Part shown: positions 52,130-58,756 of the stretch, piece after piece
How the letters are laid out: the number at the start of each line of letters is the position of its first letter
How positions within the stretch are numbered: the stretch's first letter is position 1
Origin: Haloferax elongans ATCC BAA-1513
Lineage (GTDB): Archaea; Halobacteriota; Halobacteria; Halobacteriales; Haloferacaceae
Length of the DNA stretch: 64,000 nt
NCBI RefSeq assembly: GCF_000336755.1
Contig: NZ_AOLK01000019.1
Location: forward strand, 266,301-330,300
Reading direction: 5' to 3'
Notes under the pieces: model-generated
Told to the model about the DNA's origin: nothing
Databases searched by the model: none
The model's input: the letters and a program-made list of their open reading frames with translations, nothing else
Made by a program: the position numbers and the translations under genes

Positions 52130-53590
52130 ACATCCTCCCCGCCCTAAAGGGCGAGGATTCCCGAGCGTTGGGATATTAGGGTTCGCAACTCACCTGTTTG
52201 CTCGGTGCGAAACGCCCCGAGGTTTGGTTGAACAGGTGGACTGCTGGCCGTGCCAAACGACCGTTACTCATATCCTCCGTAGGGGGATTCTGAGTTATCT
52301 TTCTGCGAATGTTCACCGCACCATTTACGTCCGCATTCATCGTCGTTCCGCACGACTCACAGACGTACAAACCACGCTCCACACGATTCGCATCACGCTT
52401 TCGACCACAGCACGAACACGTCTTGCTCGTGGCGCGTTCTGAAACACGGTCAACGAGGATACCGTGTTCTTCGGCCTTGTATTCGAGTAACGTGGTGAAG
52501 CGGTCGAACTCCCAGCCGTGGATTTTCTTGTTTCCACGCTTCCCCCAGTTCCGAGACTCCCCGTTCTCATCCTCACGAATATCGCTCAAATCACCGATGG
52601 CGATGCGACCGACCTCGTGGTCGATACACTGCTCTACGATGTGCTTGGCGAGGGCGTGCAGGAAGTGGTCTTTCCGACGCGAGAGTTTCTGTCGGGCACG
52701 AAGGGCACGACGGGAGGGGCCGTTCTTGCCCTCGGTGTCGTACTCGTCACGGGTGAAGTAGTGCTTGTCCTGTTTGAGAACGTTCCCCGGATACAACTCG
52801 GCGTCTCCATCGTCGTAGGCGATGGCGAGATAGTTGCTGATGCCGAGGTCAATTCCAGCGGTGTTGTCGCCGGGTGCGTCCTCGACAGGAATCTCAACCT
52901 TGCAAACGAGGTGAAGCTCCCAACGGTCACCGTTCCACACGGCTCGCACTTGCTGGATGTTCTCCACGGTCACGTCCGGTCGGGTTTCGTACTCTGCGAG
53001 GATGAAGTCCGAGCGGTGGTTCTTCAGGTTGAAGCCTTTGCTCAGACGGAGTTGGTTGTGCTTGGAATCGTGCTTGATGCCGTTCTGCTTCCACGTCACG
53101 GTGGAGCGTGGATGGTTGCCGCCTCGCTTTCTGTATCCGGGTGGATTCGCGTCTGTGTCGCCGTTCTTGCGCTTTTTGAACCAACCGTTGAACGACTCAG
53201 CGAGTTCTTCGAGAACGCGCTGACTTGACTGAGAATGGAGGTCACTATATCGTTCGTGGTCTTTTAATTCGCACTTGAGGTCGGCCTCGGACGGAATCTC
53301 GCCAGTGTCATCCCATTCATTTTGGGCGTGGTATCGGGCGACGTTCCACAGTTTGGATGCGGAGTGCCCACAATCATCGAGGTCGTCACTCACTTGAGAG
53401 TGGTTGACGATTTTTGCTCGATAGGTGCGGGTTGTTTCCAGCATCCGACTGTGTTCATAAGAATTTATGGAGAATTGTATATTAAAAGTAACGACCGAGA
53501 CGTGGAATATCCGGTCTGAAATCGAACGTGGTTAGTGGAGGAGTTGTCGGCTGTATCCCCGCCCTGAAGGGAGGGGTTTTAGCCTTGAAA
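52130..53590 (-). mobile_element. IS1341-type (IS200/IS605 family) element carrying only tnpB
   Basis: Bounded by two hairpin ends typical of this family: GCCC-TAAA-GGGC at 52141-52152 on the right and CCCCGCCC-TGAA-GGGAGGGG at 53557-53576 on the left (ends approximate). It contains one tnpB gene and no tnpA, so it would need a TnpA in trans. The right end, just past the tnpB stop, is where the guide (reRNA) of TnpB normally ends, so the guide would be read from bases below about 52130. Confidence 0.8.
52176..53444 (-). CDS. tnpB: TnpB-family protein (RNA-guided nuclease relative)
   Basis: A 422-aa TnpB. RuvC-I is TAGIDLGISNYLAIAYDD (Asp199). The RuvC-II strand is RIAIGDLSDIRED (281-286 IAIGDL), where the usual catalytic Glu position holds Gly284. 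The zinc ribbon is CSCCG and CESCG (Cys343, 346, 362, 365). RuvC-III is ADVNGAVNIRRK (Asp372). The ORF is otherwise full length and uninterrupted. If the Glu is really absent, DNA cleavage may be lost or another acid may substitute; an alignment is needed before claiming either. Confidence 0.92.
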   Translation of the reverse strand: MLETTRTYRAKIVNHSQVSDDLDDCGHSASKLWNVARYHAQNEWDDTGEIPSEADLKCELKDHERYSDLHSQSSQRVLEELAESFNGWFKKRKNGDTDANPPGYRKRGGNHPRSTVTWKQNGIKHDSKHNQLRLSKGFNLKNHRSDFILAEYETRPDVTVENIQQVRAVWNGDRWELHLVCKVEIPVEDAPGDNTAGIDLGISNYLAIAYDDGDAELYPGNVLKQDKHYFTRDEYDTEGKNGPSRRALRARQKLSRRKDHFLHALAKHIVEQCIDHEVGRIAIGDLSDIREDENGESRNWGKRGNKKIHGWEFDRFTTLLEYKAEEHGILVDRVSERATSKTCSCCGRKRDANRVERGLYVCESCGTTMNADVNGAVNIRRKITQNPPTEDMSNGRLARPAVHLFNQTSGRFAPSKQVSCEP

Positions 53591-53801: not shown

Positions 53802-54584
53802 TCACTCGACGATGAACTGACCGGCGATTTCCAGAATTTCGTCCATCGACTTCGCCTCGTCGAAGGCAGCGGGGAACGGGTCGTCGCCGTTGAGGAGGTT
53901 GAGGTACGAGGCGTGGCGGGCTTCGACCGTAGCAACGGTCGCACCAGCCGTCTGTAAGTCGGGACTCTCGATGAGGTCGAGTGCGCCGGTGTAGGCCATC
54001 ACGCCGGTGTTTTCGAGTGCCTGTGCGGTGGCGAAGAACTTCGTCGGGTCGTCTTGAACCATCGTTCCGAAGTCGTACTCTGCGGGAGAGACAGGCTCGC
54101 CACCCAACGTCGTGATGACGGTTTCGAGTACGTCGACGTGCGTTGCTTCGTGCTCGCCGACGTGCGTGAGGTGGTCGTAGGCTGTACTACGCACTTCGTC
54201 GCCGAACCCCGACAGCACGTCACTGTTTTCGATGGTCTCTCGGCTGAAGAATCCGCCGAGAGATTCGAGGCTCTGTTTGTAGAACTGGTCTTCGAGGTGT
54301 TCGAGTGTGAGCGCGTAGTTCAGGACGTCGACGTCCGTTCCGGGGACGTCCTGGTCGCCGTTCGCCTTGTTCATCCCGTTGCCGTTTCCATTGGGTCCGT
54401 TGCCGTTGCCGTTTCCTTCGTGTTCGTCTGCCGCGGCCAGTCCCGAGAGTCCGAATGCTCCGAGGCCAGCGGCTGCAGTGCTGACGAGGAACGCCCGGCG
54501 AGGGGTGGCTTGTTCACGGAGCGGTTCGAGTGTCCGGCCGAGCTCAGGGGCGGAGTCTGTTTTTTCGTCGTCCATAGGGTTCAT
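53802..54584 (-). CDS. Ferritin-like domain protein, Tat-secreted
   Basis: A 260-aa protein. The Tat signal ATPRRAFLVSTAAAGLGAFGLSGLAAA is at about 27-53, followed by an Asn/Gly-rich linker. A four-helix ferritin-like domain covers about 80-260 (VDVLNYALTLEHLEDQFYKQSLE, HLTHVGEHEATHVDVLETVI, GATVATVEARHASYLNLLNG). The Glu/His residues in EHLE, HVGEHE and EARH fit a di-iron site. It is related to desiccation/ferritin-2 type proteins. The start is the ATG at 54584, with an in-frame ATG at 54575. Function outside the cell is unknown. Confidence 0.88.
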   Translation of the reverse strand: MNPMDDEKTDSAPELGRTLEPLREQATPRRAFLVSTAAAGLGAFGLSGLAAADEHEGNGNGNGPNGNGNGMNKANGDQDVPGTDVDVLNYALTLEHLEDQFYKQSLESLGGFFSRETIENSDVLSGFGDEVRSTAYDHLTHVGEHEATHVDVLETVITTLGGEPVSPAEYDFGTMVQDDPTKFFATAQALENTGVMAYTGALDLIESPDLQTAGATVATVEARHASYLNLLNGDDPFPAAFDEAKSMDEILEIAGQFIVE

Positions 54585-54746
54585 GCGCCGAAGCGCGTCT
54601 GAATGTGGTTGCGACTCCGGGATTATGATTTTCCGAACTTTTTCCCAAATTCAACCAAAGTCAATATTTATGAAATTTTTGTTGGAGTGAGTGTCTTCTG
54701 AATACCACCGTGGTGGGCACAGGCTCAACTACGGTAGAACAGAACC

Positions 54747-54752
54747 TATAAA
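54747..54752 (+). promoter_or_regulatory. TATA box of the trpS leader transcript
   Basis: TATAAA lies 30 bases before the ATG of the Trp-rich upstream ORF at 54777, the spacing seen for leaderless genes throughout this window. Transcription should begin at or next to that ATG. Confidence 0.65.
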
Positions 54753-54776
54753 TGATTCAACTATATTGGTGACAGT

Positions 54777-54848
54777 ATGGTGTCCACTTCCCGCGCCACG
54801 TGCTGGCGTTGGCAAGCGTTTTGGGAAGTGGATAGTATCGCGGTCTAG
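54777..54848 (+). CDS. Trp-rich leader peptide upstream of trpS
   Basis: A 23-codon ORF too short for routine gene finding. It begins MVSTSRATCWRW and continues QAFWEVDSIAV, with Trp codons (TGG) at positions 10, 12 and 16 - three in seven codons, against about one per hundred in ordinary proteins. It starts at a leaderless-type position under its own TATA box. Codons 3-19 overlap a strong hairpin (54784-54831), and the TAG stop lies within the 5' arm of a second hairpin (54839-54883). trpS begins 91 bases after the stop. This is the composition and placement of an attenuation leader peptide. Expression is inferred, not shown. Confidence 0.6.
   Translation: MVSTSRATCWRWQAFWEVDSIAV
54784..54831 (+). 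promoter_or_regulatory. Leader hairpin I (covers the Trp codons)
   Basis: CCACTTCCC (54784-54792) pairs perfectly with GGGAAGTGG (54823-54831), nine base pairs. A nested stem (G)CGCC/GGCG(T) with a seven-base loop sits inside. The Trp codons are in the distal half, so a stalled ribosome would open the stem. Confidence 0.65.
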
Positions 54849-54900
54849 AATCAGACGGGCTTCACCCGCCAGATTCGGCCGCGGTGCTCACTCCGTTTTT
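54839..54900 (+). promoter_or_regulatory. Leader hairpin II followed by T-tract (candidate attenuator)
   Basis: CGCGGTC (54839-54845) pairs with GGCCGCG (54877-54883, one G-T), then GAATC with GATTC, then CGGG with CCCG: about 16 pairs in one long stem-loop. Five Ts at 54896-54900 (within CCGTTTTTCGG) follow after 12 bases. A ribosome at the leader stop codon (54846-54848) would cover the 5' arm. Whether it is a terminator or an antiterminator cannot be told from sequence. Confidence 0.55.
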
Positions 54901-54939
54901 CGGTTGTCTCGCTTTCAGAGTGACCACCAATAGACATAG

Positions 54940-56115
54940 ATGCCAGCAACAGACGACTTCACCGTAACCCCGTACGCCGTCGAAGGAGACATCGACTACG
55001 ACCGACTGCTCGACGAGTTCGGGGCCGAGTCCCTCACAACCGAACAGAAAGCACAGTTCCCCCAACCCGTACACCAACTCATCCGTCGCGACGTCTTTTA
55101 TGCGGGACGAGACGTGGATGCCTTCCTCGCTGCCGCAAACGAAGGTAAAACGCATTCTATCGTGACGGGTCGTGGTCCGTCGGGGCCGATACACATCGGG
55201 CACATCATTCCGTTTTACTTCGCCAAGTATCTGCAAGACCAGACAGGGTGTCTGGTGTATATTCCGCTCTCCGACGACGAGAAGTACCTGTTAAAGGACA
55301 AATCGCTCGACGAGATTCACGGGCACACGCGGGAGAACCTATTGGATATCCTCGCCGTCGGGTTCGACCCCGAGCGAACTCGAATCGTCGTCGACACGGC
55401 CGACGCCGACGTGGTGTATCCGCTCGCAGCCGCCTTTGCGAAGGAAGTGACGCAGTCGACCGTGGACGCGACGTACGGAGACCCCGAGAACATCGGACTC
55501 TCGTTCTACCCGGCTGTTCAGGCCGCCCACCTCCTCTTGCCGCAACTCGTCGAGGGGCGGCATCCGACGCTCGTTCCGATTGCTGTAGACCAAGACCCTC
55601 ACGTCCGGGTCTGTCGCGATATCGCAGCCAAGCAGCGATACGACGTCTCCAAGCCCGGTGCCTTGCTCTCGAAATTCCTCCCGGCCCTCGAAGGACCAGG
55701 GAAGATGAGTTCGTCGGGCGATGCAGCTAGTATTCGCCTGTCTGACGACCGGGAGACGGTCTTCGAAAAGATTCGAAACCACGCGTATTCCGGTGGACGA
55801 CGCAGTGTAGAGTCCCACCGAGAGCACGGTGGGGACCCCGAGGTTGACGTTCCGTACCAGTTCCTGTATTACTTTTTCGAGAAGAGTGACGAGCGCGTAG
55901 AGCGATTGGCACGTGAGTATCGCGACGGGTCACTCCTGAGCGGAGAGCTCAAAGAAATCGCCGCGGCGAGTATCGCGGACTTCCTCGAAGCACACCAAAA
56001 CCGGCGCGAAGAGCTCGGGCCGGTAGCTGACGAACTCAAACAGTATCGACTGAGGGAATCCGAACGACAGGCGGCACGGAAGCAGGCCGGGTACCCTAGT
56101 ACACGTGTATTCTAA
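54940..56115 (+). CDS. trpS: Tryptophanyl-tRNA synthetase
   Basis: A 391-aa class I synthetase of archaeal/eukaryotic type. The HIGH motif is PIHIGHII (85-88) and the KMSSS motif is PGKMSSSGDA (255-259). SFYPAVQAAHLLLPQL and PIAVDQDPHVRVCRDIA are typical TrpRS segments. It charges tRNA-Trp. No Shine-Dalgarno or clear TATA lies close before the ATG at 54940, so it is probably translated from the longer transcript that starts at the Trp-rich leader. The length and motifs look complete and functional. Confidence 0.95.
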   Translation: MPATDDFTVTPYAVEGDIDYDRLLDEFGAESLTTEQKAQFPQPVHQLIRRDVFYAGRDVDAFLAAANEGKTHSIVTGRGPSGPIHIGHIIPFYFAKYLQDQTGCLVYIPLSDDEKYLLKDKSLDEIHGHTRENLLDILAVGFDPERTRIVVDTADADVVYPLAAAFAKEVTQSTVDATYGDPENIGLSFYPAVQAAHLLLPQLVEGRHPTLVPIAVDQDPHVRVCRDIAAKQRYDVSKPGALLSKFLPALEGPGKMSSSGDAASIRLSDDRETVFEKIRNHAYSGGRRSVESHREHGGDPEVDVPYQFLYYFFEKSDERVERLAREYRDGSLLSGELKEIAAASIADFLEAHQNRREELGPVADELKQYRLRESERQAARKQAGYPSTRVF

Positions 56116-56587: not shown

Positions 56588-57838
56588 CTAGTTCCCGACG
56601 AAATCGTCGAGCGTGCTGGACGAGTTCTCGTTGAGGAATGGCTCGACTGTCTCGTGGACACCGACGAGGTCGATGGTGTCGCGCATCGCCGAGACGATGA
56701 GTTCCACGTCCATATCCAGCGCATACTCTCGGTACGTTCCGCCGCGACGGCCTTCGTTGCGCTCGGTGACCGAAACGATACCGAGCATCGCGAGTTCGCT
56801 CAGGTGGTCGCGCATTCTGCGTGGAACGAGCGGGTCTCGGTTAGCGAGTTCGGCAAAGCGCGTATACCGCGGTCGAACATCGCGAGAGCGAATCGGGGTC
56901 TCCCCCTCGAGGTCCAGTGTGAGAAGTGAGTACAGAACGAGATGGCCGTGCTCGGTCAAGCCGTTGATTCCTTCTTTGATACGACCGCGTTCGAGGTCTC
57001 TCCGACCGCGTTTGACGTGCTCTTCCGTGACGCAATCTGTCTCTTCGTCTCGGGCAAGGTCGCCTGCTTTCATCAACAGGTCAATAGACTGGCGGGCGTC
57101 ACCAGCGTCTTTCGCGCCGTAGGCTGCACAGAGTGGGATGACCTCGTCTGCGAGGACGCCGTCCCGAAATGCGACAGTTGCCCGTTGCTCGAGGATGGCT
57201 CGGAGGTTCTTCGCGTTGTACGCGGGGAAGTGAATCTCCTGTTCACACAGCGAACTCTTTACTTTCGGAGACAGGTCGTCTCTAAACGAGAAGTCGTTCG
57301 AGATACCGATGAGACCGACCTTGGCGTTGTCTAAGTTTCCATTCGCGCGTGCGCGTGGGAGTTGATAGAGGATACTATCGTCGTTGACGTGGTCGATTTC
57401 GTCGAGGACGACAGTGATTGTCCCGCCACACTCATCGAGTTCCTGCCAGAGCATCTCGTACACCGAGCCGAGCGGATACCCGGTCGTACTGATTTGGTTA
57501 GATTCCGAGCGGAACTCGTTGACGAGGCGGGTCGCGATTTGATAGGAACTCGTCAGCCCGTCACAGTTCAAAAAGACGACTGTGAGGTCGATGTCGTCGT
57601 ACCGACTCGCATCTTCCCGAAGGTGAGCGAGGAGGTACTTCGTCGCTGCTGTCTTCCCGACACCAGTCTTGCCGTACAAGAAAATGTTGTTCGGCTGTTC
57701 ACCGTTGATGACTGGTTGAAGTGCTGCTTGGTAGGTTCGAAGTTCCTCGTCGCGCCCCACGAGTTCATCGGGCTGGTAGTCCTCACGGAGGGCATCCCGG
57801 TCCCGATAGATTTCGGTGTCTCGTTCAAACAGGGGCAT
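56588..57838 (-). CDS. orc1/cdc6: Orc1/Cdc6 replication initiator
   Basis: A 416-aa AAA+ initiator. Walker A GKTGVGKTAATKY (56-63), Walker B VVLDEIDHV (146-149), sensor 1 LIGISNDFSF, sensor 2 DARQSIDLLMKAGDLA, and a C-terminal winged helix (PIRSRDVRPRYTRFAELANRDPLVPRRMRDHLSELAMLGIVSV). It binds origin repeats and loads MCM. The start is the ATG at 57838 (MPLFERDTEIY): TTTTAT lies 32 bases upstream, and the longer frame runs into the repeat region. One origin repeat abuts that TATA box, suggesting autoregulation. Confidence 0.95.
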   Translation of the reverse strand: MPLFERDTEIYRDRDALREDYQPDELVGRDEELRTYQAALQPVINGEQPNNIFLYGKTGVGKTAATKYLLAHLREDASRYDDIDLTVVFLNCDGLTSSYQIATRLVNEFRSESNQISTTGYPLGSVYEMLWQELDECGGTITVVLDEIDHVNDDSILYQLPRARANGNLDNAKVGLIGISNDFSFRDDLSPKVKSSLCEQEIHFPAYNAKNLRAILEQRATVAFRDGVLADEVIPLCAAYGAKDAGDARQSIDLLMKAGDLARDEETDCVTEEHVKRGRRDLERGRIKEGINGLTEHGHLVLYSLLTLDLEGETPIRSRDVRPRYTRFAELANRDPLVPRRMRDHLSELAMLGIVSVTERNEGRRGGTYREYALDMDVELIVSAMRDTIDLVGVHETVEPFLNENSSSTLDDFVGN

Positions 57839-58756
57839 GAGAACACGGTTCGTCCACATCACTGATAAAACCACCGCGTCCGCAGTGTCCGCTGTTCTGA
57901 GAGTATATAAATAAACAGCAAACACACCCCCTCCACTTTGTCCGCTGTTCTCGTCTTCGAAGGAAGGAAGCCAACAAAATACCACTATTGAGTAAGGCAA
58001 GCTTTATCATAAAGTAGGTTAAACCATATCCGTAGGCCAATAATAACAACAGCATTAGTTGGTTGTCACTAGTAGACTGTGTGAGGTTGCTAGTTTGTTC
58101 TGTCGGTTCCGGGTGTGATTATGCTTCGATTATTGTCAGGTTCTCTCCATCTCAGCTCGTTACCTGCAATACCTTCCGACAGTTTGGACCACCCCTTCAC
58201 CTTCTCACCGAGAACAGCGGACATAGTGGTGTGAGTGTTACATCGTCTCGGGAGCAATACCCTCGTGTCCAGGACTCCAGCCAACTTCCTCACAGTCAGA
58301 ACAGCGGACATGGTGGTGTCTGTGTGGGGGGGATTCGAAACCACGGACTCCCGAGTTGGTCTCTCTCAAATTTTTGTCTACTACTCAGTCGCCTCGCCTT
58401 GTCTCGTCTTTCTACGCTATCGCTGACCCCGTCTAATCTCCGACTCCAACGGTATGTTGGCTACAATTACTGCGGACTTGGTGGTGTTACAGGTTGCCGA
58501 GACACGTCTGTACGACGTCTACTCACTCAGTCGACTCGAAAATACATCGTTCTACAGACCCGCCACGGATTACTGCGGACATTGTGGTGTTCCTTCCGTC
58601 CGATTTGGCAGCTGGGCTTCGATAGTAACACCACTGTGTCCGCTGTTCTATCTGCGCTGTGTTGTCTACGCTGTGCTATCTATTTTGTCTCCCCATCTGT
58701 TGTCGGCAAAGAGAAACACACCCAATACACCACGAAGCGACTTTTTGACCGCCTGT
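57839..58756. other. ori: Putative replication origin
   Basis: A 918-base gene-free interval upstream of orc1/cdc6. An AT-rich core (about 57900-57925 and 57975-58075) is flanked by origin-type repeats pointing at each other: + strand at 57868-57886 and 57932-57951 (and a half copy at 57885-57898); - strand at 58211-58232, 58298-58319, 58469-58488 and 58572-58591; then + at 58627-58649. Inverted initiator sites around an AT-rich unwinding element beside orc1/cdc6 is the archaeal origin plan. A long ORF reading through this interval (58063-58824, plus strand) has non-haloarchaeal composition and is rejected. Confidence 0.8.
57865..57886 (-). promoter_or_regulatory. orc1/cdc6 promoter overlapped by an origin repeat
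   Basis: On the minus strand TTTTAT (57870-57865) is 32 bases before the orc1 ATG and is directly joined to the repeat GCGGACG-CG-GTGGTTT (57886-57868). Initiator bound at the repeat would contact the BRE/TATA. Confidence 0.6.

Follow-up and report, generated by a model that had tools for sequence, protein, structure and literature searches.

A candidate ribosome-read tryptophan attenuator upstream of tryptophanyl-tRNA synthetase genes in haloarchaea

Leader-peptide attenuation is a textbook bacterial mechanism. In Escherichia coli trpL and other ribosome-mediated attenuators, a short ORF with tandem Trp codons precedes mutually exclusive helices, and a stalled ribosome decides between them. 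The haloarchaeal element described in this study shares this layout and the expected response to low Trp-tRNA with the trpL type, but it is archaeal, has a predicted leaderless start, and would control tryptophanyl-tRNA synthetase (TrpRS) instead of biosynthesis. The helices also differ: trpL uses 1:2, 2:3, and 3:4, whereas in the haloarchaeal element 1:2 would compete with 2:4, with the T tract itself captured. Unlike trpL, most haloarchaeal members lack a canonical hairpin-plus-U terminator.

By its arrangement, the element appears to resemble most the inducible second TrpRS of Streptomyces. Vecchione and Sello reportedly described in 2010 the auxiliary TrpRS1 gene of Streptomyces coelicolor with a Trp-codon leader, and the induced TrpRS1 enzyme of this species is said to have been reported by Kitabatake in 2002. 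In both cases, a second TrpRS lies behind a Trp-codon leader, inducible in Streptomyces and putatively so in Haloferax elongans, which likewise has a separate TrpRS. However, the Streptomyces leader is bacterial and has an intrinsic terminator, there is no evidence of its common descent with the haloarchaeal element, and in some haloarchaea the leader would control the other TrpRS. T-box leaders of bacterial trpS and trp genes also sense tRNA-Trp charging and control trpS, but they bind the tRNA directly and need no ORF. The leader had no match in Rfam, which includes the T-box and bacterial trp leader families, at the gathering threshold or at E ≤ 1. A synthetic theophylline riboswitch indicates that RNA-level control works in haloarchaea, but this device is engineered and ligand-bound and is not a natural leader-peptide system (PMC8241225). 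No archaeal leader-peptide attenuator was found in our literature search, which covered only a minority of subscription papers.

We analyzed a 64 kb stretch of DNA from H. elongans ATCC BAA-1513 (hereafter the window); all features of the element lie on its plus strand. A promoter consisting of an AC-rich BRE-like stretch and a TATA box (54739–54752, with TATAAA at 54747–54752) stands 30 nt upstream of the ATG at 54777, which opens a leader ORF of 23 codons (54777–54848) with a predicted leaderless start. The leader peptide is MVSTSRATCWRWQAFWEVDSIAV, followed by the stop codon, and has Trp at codons 10 (54804–54806), 12 (54810–54812), and 16 (54822–54824). The TATA box, the ORF, and the Trp codons had been recognized at these places in a first-pass annotation. 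Hairpin I pairs its 5′ arm, r1 (TCCACTTCCC, 54783–54792), with its 3′ arm, r2 (GGGAAGTGGA, 54823–54832), over 10 pairs, one more than the nine annotated originally (54784–54831). Hairpin II (54834–54888) has an outer stem of 12 pairs (54834–54845 with 54877–54888) and an inner stem with a small apical hairpin (GGGCTTCACCC); it had also been annotated, with the ORF ending inside its 5′ arm, but the stop codon falls just behind the outer 5′ arm. The region r4 (TCCGTTTTTC, 54892–54901) follows and contains the previously noted T tract (TTTTT, 54896–54900) within a TTTTTC (T5C) motif at 54896–54901. The window leader folds at −70.3 kcal/mol, compared with −54.1 ± 4.1 for shuffled sequences (z −3.9). 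The second TrpRS gene of the genome, trpS2 (54940–56115, 391 aa), begins 91 nt downstream of the leader stop codon, as had been annotated, and its product is a tryptophan--tRNA ligase (NCBIfam NF008927, 560 bits vs. a cut-off of 478). It has no Shine-Dalgarno-like site, and the sole conserved promoter is that before the leader, in keeping with the annotated lack of initiation signals of its own.

The other TrpRS of H. elongans is encoded on a separate contig, shows 34% identity to trpS2, and sits behind an endA-like gene, an arrangement like the endA-trpS1 operon of H. volcanii (PMC7714728). Inspection upstream of this gene found no leader, and the trpC and trpD-trpF genes of the same genome, checked for Trp-rich leaders, gave none that was convincing.

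For comparison, we took the regions upstream of genes for this TrpRS type in Halobacteriales genomes, which gave 165 unique sequences. Of these, 158 have a leader with one or more Trp codons in frame, usually as W-x-W, and 149 of the 158 leaders have at least two of the cognate codons. The short ORF thus lies upstream of trpS behind a single conserved promoter in 158 of the 165 loci, and a shared transcript is predicted. Examples are MQSAPCGWRWRVRGADSFAAAA in Halobacterium salinarum (L091) and MSALGWQWRWHAPSRADSVVAAGDAA in Natrinema. Five loci (L045, L072, L122, L126, and L133) have no recognizable Trp leader; L049 and L151, also counted among the 165, are cut off or have a leader that is not resolved. 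The Trp codons, on whose conservation the first-pass annotation had staked its reading, are missing in about five real exceptions in 165, and the alignment of trpS upstream regions across haloarchaea that it had proposed shows them conserved, with compensatory changes in both hairpins. When a covariance model of the element was searched at E ≤ 0.01, the H. elongans genome gave one hit, located where predicted, and 174 of the 391 Halobacteriales genomes gave hits. The element was detected in 19 genomes of a phylum-wide sample, and every one of these belongs to the Halobacteriales. A chance ORF and hairpins in GC-rich DNA would not recur as a homologous element in this way, and we found no evidence in favor of such an origin, which we regard as already refuted.

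The trpS protein tree has two parts, and in both almost all genes carry the leader. The second part largely tracks families. The part that contains the window gene is scattered over families and includes plasmid copies, and therefore looks horizontally moved. In the window, the neighboring ORFs were judged by reading only: one at 52176–53444 (minus strand) resembles an IS605-type TnpB with a zinc-ribbon C-terminus, the divergent neighbor at 53802–54584 (minus strand) has a Tat-type signal and a ferritin-like sequence, and an Orc1/Cdc6-like ATPase ORF (56588–58000, minus strand) lies 3′ of trpS. The last of these and the scatter in the trpS tree together point to surroundings of a mobile or plasmid-like kind.

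Within the leader ORFs, TGG occurs at 0.090, 0.020, and 0.003 per codon in the three frames, counts that are biased because the ORFs were picked partly by their Trp content. The interval between the motif TCCRCT in the 5′ arm and TGGnnnTGG offers a test that does not depend on how the ORFs were picked. This distance takes seven lengths (3, 6, 9, 12, 15, 18, and 45) and is a multiple of three in 81 of 81 cases; with a looser definition of the r1 arm, 142 of 148 distances to the Trp pair are multiples of three. On the 3′ side of the Trp codons, the frame is looser (130/148), and several lineages stop or shift frame straight after these codons. Thus, the start-to-Trp frame is kept, and not the entire peptide. 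The similarity of the peptides across families (e.g., xSALxWRWxxxSRADSVVAAxDAA) might point to a functional micropeptide, but the part after the Trp codons is shifted or missing in Halorussus (GERTVS, then stop), in the plasmid clade (WR, then stop), and in L012, L220, and L225, all of which retain the Trp codons and the RNA arms. The likeness of the peptides is attributable to the conserved RNA arms, and we consider a micropeptide function highly improbable. The codon separating the two Trp codons is variable (CGN, CAG, CAC, TGC, or CCG). In the 158 loci, the BRE/TATA profile stands at a fixed distance from the leader start codon, with an A-rich BRE at −36 to −34 and the TATA box at −30 to −25, and this spacing (−36 to −25) matches the expectation for transcripts predicted to be leaderless.

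Covariation of the stems was scored on a 52-sequence alignment. In stems I and II, 88.9% of the cells are paired, and changes on both sides occur in 121 cells, compared with 46 in shuffles; the covariation exceeds that of all 500 shuffles and of every slid register. In a mutual-information ranking over the whole leader, the top three column pairs belong to stem I, and the ranking is noisy elsewhere. The junction between hairpins I and II, GGACAGT (GGATAGT at 54831–54836 in the window; alignment columns 65–70), and the apical hairpin of hairpin II (GGCCTAACCC type) are conserved beyond the needs of pairing.

A key feature, absent from the first-pass annotation, is that r2 is also complementary to r4, the pyrimidine tract just 3′ of hairpin II, and that this tract effectively duplicates r1. 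In the window, GGGAAGUGGA and UCCGUUUUUC pair at 10 of 10 positions, with G-U allowed. The r2:r4 test across loci was anchored on one r4 purine. Over eight positions, 94.7% of the cells are paired, compared with 54–66% on shifts of 1–4; the anchor leaves some freedom at three of the eight positions, and the five outside this freedom give the same picture. Own partners score 523, compared with 502 ± 3.3 for permuted partners, for which the maximum of 2000 permutations was 514. One pair changes from C:G to T:G or T:A, with A in r4 opposite T in six cases and opposite C in one (p = 4e-4, not corrected for relatedness), and at another pair, A stands opposite T in 33 of 34. A class-by-class energy matrix favors the own partners in five of six classes. 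An unanchored swap of r4 among all sequences makes little difference (−11.8 vs. −11.7 kcal/mol), since the tracts are largely interchangeable through G-U pairs. As both r1:r2 and r2:r4 are conserved, r2 has two mutually exclusive partners. Two further pairings were considered and dropped. Hairpin III (GGTGCTCACTC with GAGTGACCACC, the 54884–54893 region with 54919–54929) can form in some members of the mobile clade, but the other TrpRS clades do not conserve its 3′ arm, and their changes there are, by eye, uncompensated; a helix between the 3′ arm of hairpin II and a GTATCGC further downstream already breaks down in the window itself.

The exclusive partners of r2 also bear on the possibility that the element is a structured RNA bound by a protein, such as TrpRS or a Trp-binding regulator, in which the ORF would be incidental and TGG a binding site in the loop of hairpin I. 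The strong conservation of the hairpins and the GGACAGT junction, and the existence of one element copy without Trp codons (L235), would suit a bound RNA. Nevertheless, such an RNA would account poorly for the frame-keeping spacing between r1 and the Trp pair at seven lengths (81/81), the fixed distance of the start codon from the promoter, the in-frame TGG repeats (WQWRW and WRWRW) with a variable codon between them, and the two mutually exclusive partners of r2. We consider this explanation improbable. The Trp-rich leader, set in an RNA with two competing folds, is very probably a tryptophan sensor read by the ribosome.

In minimum-energy folds of the full leaders, hairpin I formed in 62 of 69 and r2:r4 in 2 of 69. 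Removal of the RNA 5′ of r2, which mimics a ribosome on the Trp codons, yielded r2:r4 in 53 of 69. Ensemble folding is less clean: the mean r2:r4 probability is 0.16 unmasked (0.76 in L005) and ranges from 0.16 to 0.42. Since r2:r4 is partly present at equilibrium without masking, the switch must depend on folding order. The first base of the last Trp codon lies 13 nt before r2 in 79 of 151 loci and 10–16 nt before it in 139 of 151. For bacterial ribosomes, it is established how far the front edge lies from the A site, and if this value is assumed here, the 10–16 nt spacing is close to it. Two exclusive structures, r1:r2 and r2:r4, are conserved and covary, and we infer that the ribosome chooses between them. 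The first-pass annotation had likewise proposed a switch set by ribosome position, but with hairpin II left free by a stalled ribosome and blocked by one at the stop codon. The stop position drifts among relatives, in several of them lying before hairpin II, which speaks against that version; the competitors are instead 1:2 (hairpin I) and 2:4 (the 3′ arm of hairpin I with the T tract). That annotation had also pointed out that a simply terminating hairpin II would lower trpS expression on starvation. This problem of sign is resolved if starvation lengthens hairpin II and hides the T tract.

Transcripts of H. volcanii that end between genes do so at a run of T followed by C, and insertion of T5C stopped 95% of transcripts in vivo (PMC7237163). 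The r4 copy of TTTTTC is one of 13 on both strands of the window. In Methanococcus maripaludis, the terminator factor aCPSF1 binds U-tract RNA (PMC8716108), which makes burial of the tract in a helix a plausible way to prevent termination. Only 38 of 151 r4 tracts have at least four consecutive T, suggesting that a classical U-tract terminator is not general, and hairpin II/r4 went undetected in a simple search for terminators of the hairpin-T kind. The same Trp-codon sensor and switch could alternatively act on the translation or stability of trpS mRNA, with r2:r4 exposing the start region or protecting the RNA. The scarcity of consecutive T in many r4 tracts agrees with this output, as do the single promoter before the leader, the lack of a Shine-Dalgarno-like site at trpS, and an increase, on masking of the upstream RNA, in how accessible the trpS start is predicted to be (0.53 to 0.59, p = 0.006). 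However, the start codon gains little accessibility, about 40 nt separate r4 from the trpS start, that start has no conserved pairing partner, and r4 of the window has T5C, a terminator in Haloferax (PMC7237163). We consider a translational or stability output conceivable but unlikely and prefer termination at r4.

The element is not tied to one gene. Among genomes that lack this kind of trpS, at least 14 carry it before the non-orthologous TrpRS with 34% identity (L210–L220, L222, L225, and L228; in L210, L218, and L219, the TrpRS was recognized from upstream and start sequence only). The element therefore tracks enzyme function and not one gene lineage, which strongly supports Trp sensing.

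Copies at genes of other kinds were also observed but are rare. L235 (G049:C2:2009723–2009828, minus strand) is a second copy in its genome, with a leader without Trp codon (MSALSTFAVTSRERTVRSAA), directly 5′ of a GNAT-like acetyltransferase ORF; here, the switch has perhaps been re-used for another signal, e.g., an antibiotic. L221 (G223:C72:66836–66946, minus strand) has a leader with one Trp codon (MVALSGWRRRVPGRATSVVSSR), and a GNAT acetyltransferase (PF13302) comes next. L223 and L224 (around 500–720) are two near-identical copies in one genome, in which the leader (MVSVSYLMRWLTFWEADSASNAVFRASLG) is followed by a 20-codon ORF that runs into the beginning of a SAM methyltransferase (PF13649).

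We propose that the element is a ribosome-read Trp attenuator with a 1:2 versus 2:4 switch and termination at r4, a reading to which we assign a probability of roughly 0.68. The core of the first-pass annotation, a ribosome-mediated Trp attenuator with leaderless translation, is supported by the fact that relatives keep the reading frame, its Trp codons, both hairpins, and the spacing of the promoter. Transcription would start at or next to the leader ATG, so that a ribosome could load at once. With ample Trp-tRNA, the ribosome would clear the Trp codons and depart, r1 would pair with r2 in hairpin I, and r4 would remain single-stranded; most transcripts would then stop at the T-containing r4 (T5C here) before trpS, which would be off. 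When Trp-tRNA is scarce, the ribosome would stall on W10 or W12 and mask r1, with its front edge at the start of r2, and r2 would pair with r4. This pairing would lengthen hairpin II into one long helix that buries the T tract, RNA polymerase or the cleaving factor aCPSF1 would fail to end the transcript, and trpS would be made. Comparison across relatives shows the frame of the leader, its Trp codons, both hairpins, r2:r4, the geometry, and the promoter, and from these we infer the translation of the leader, the stalling, the sign of the response, and termination as the output of r4.

The element is probably the first natural leader-peptide attenuator described in Archaea, and an order-wide haloarchaeal switch of its own design. 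In it, a leaderless Trp-codon ORF would free a hairpin arm to capture a T-containing terminator tract, and the switch would serve the one of two non-orthologous TrpRS genes that requires control, with occasional transfer to other genes. If this is true, transcription and translation in haloarchaea are coupled tightly enough for a ribosome to steer the polymerase, leaderless mRNAs can act as sensors, and archaeal termination can be regulated through RNA folding. The question is directly testable, and the genetically tractable haloarchaea would gain a natural Trp-tunable switch.
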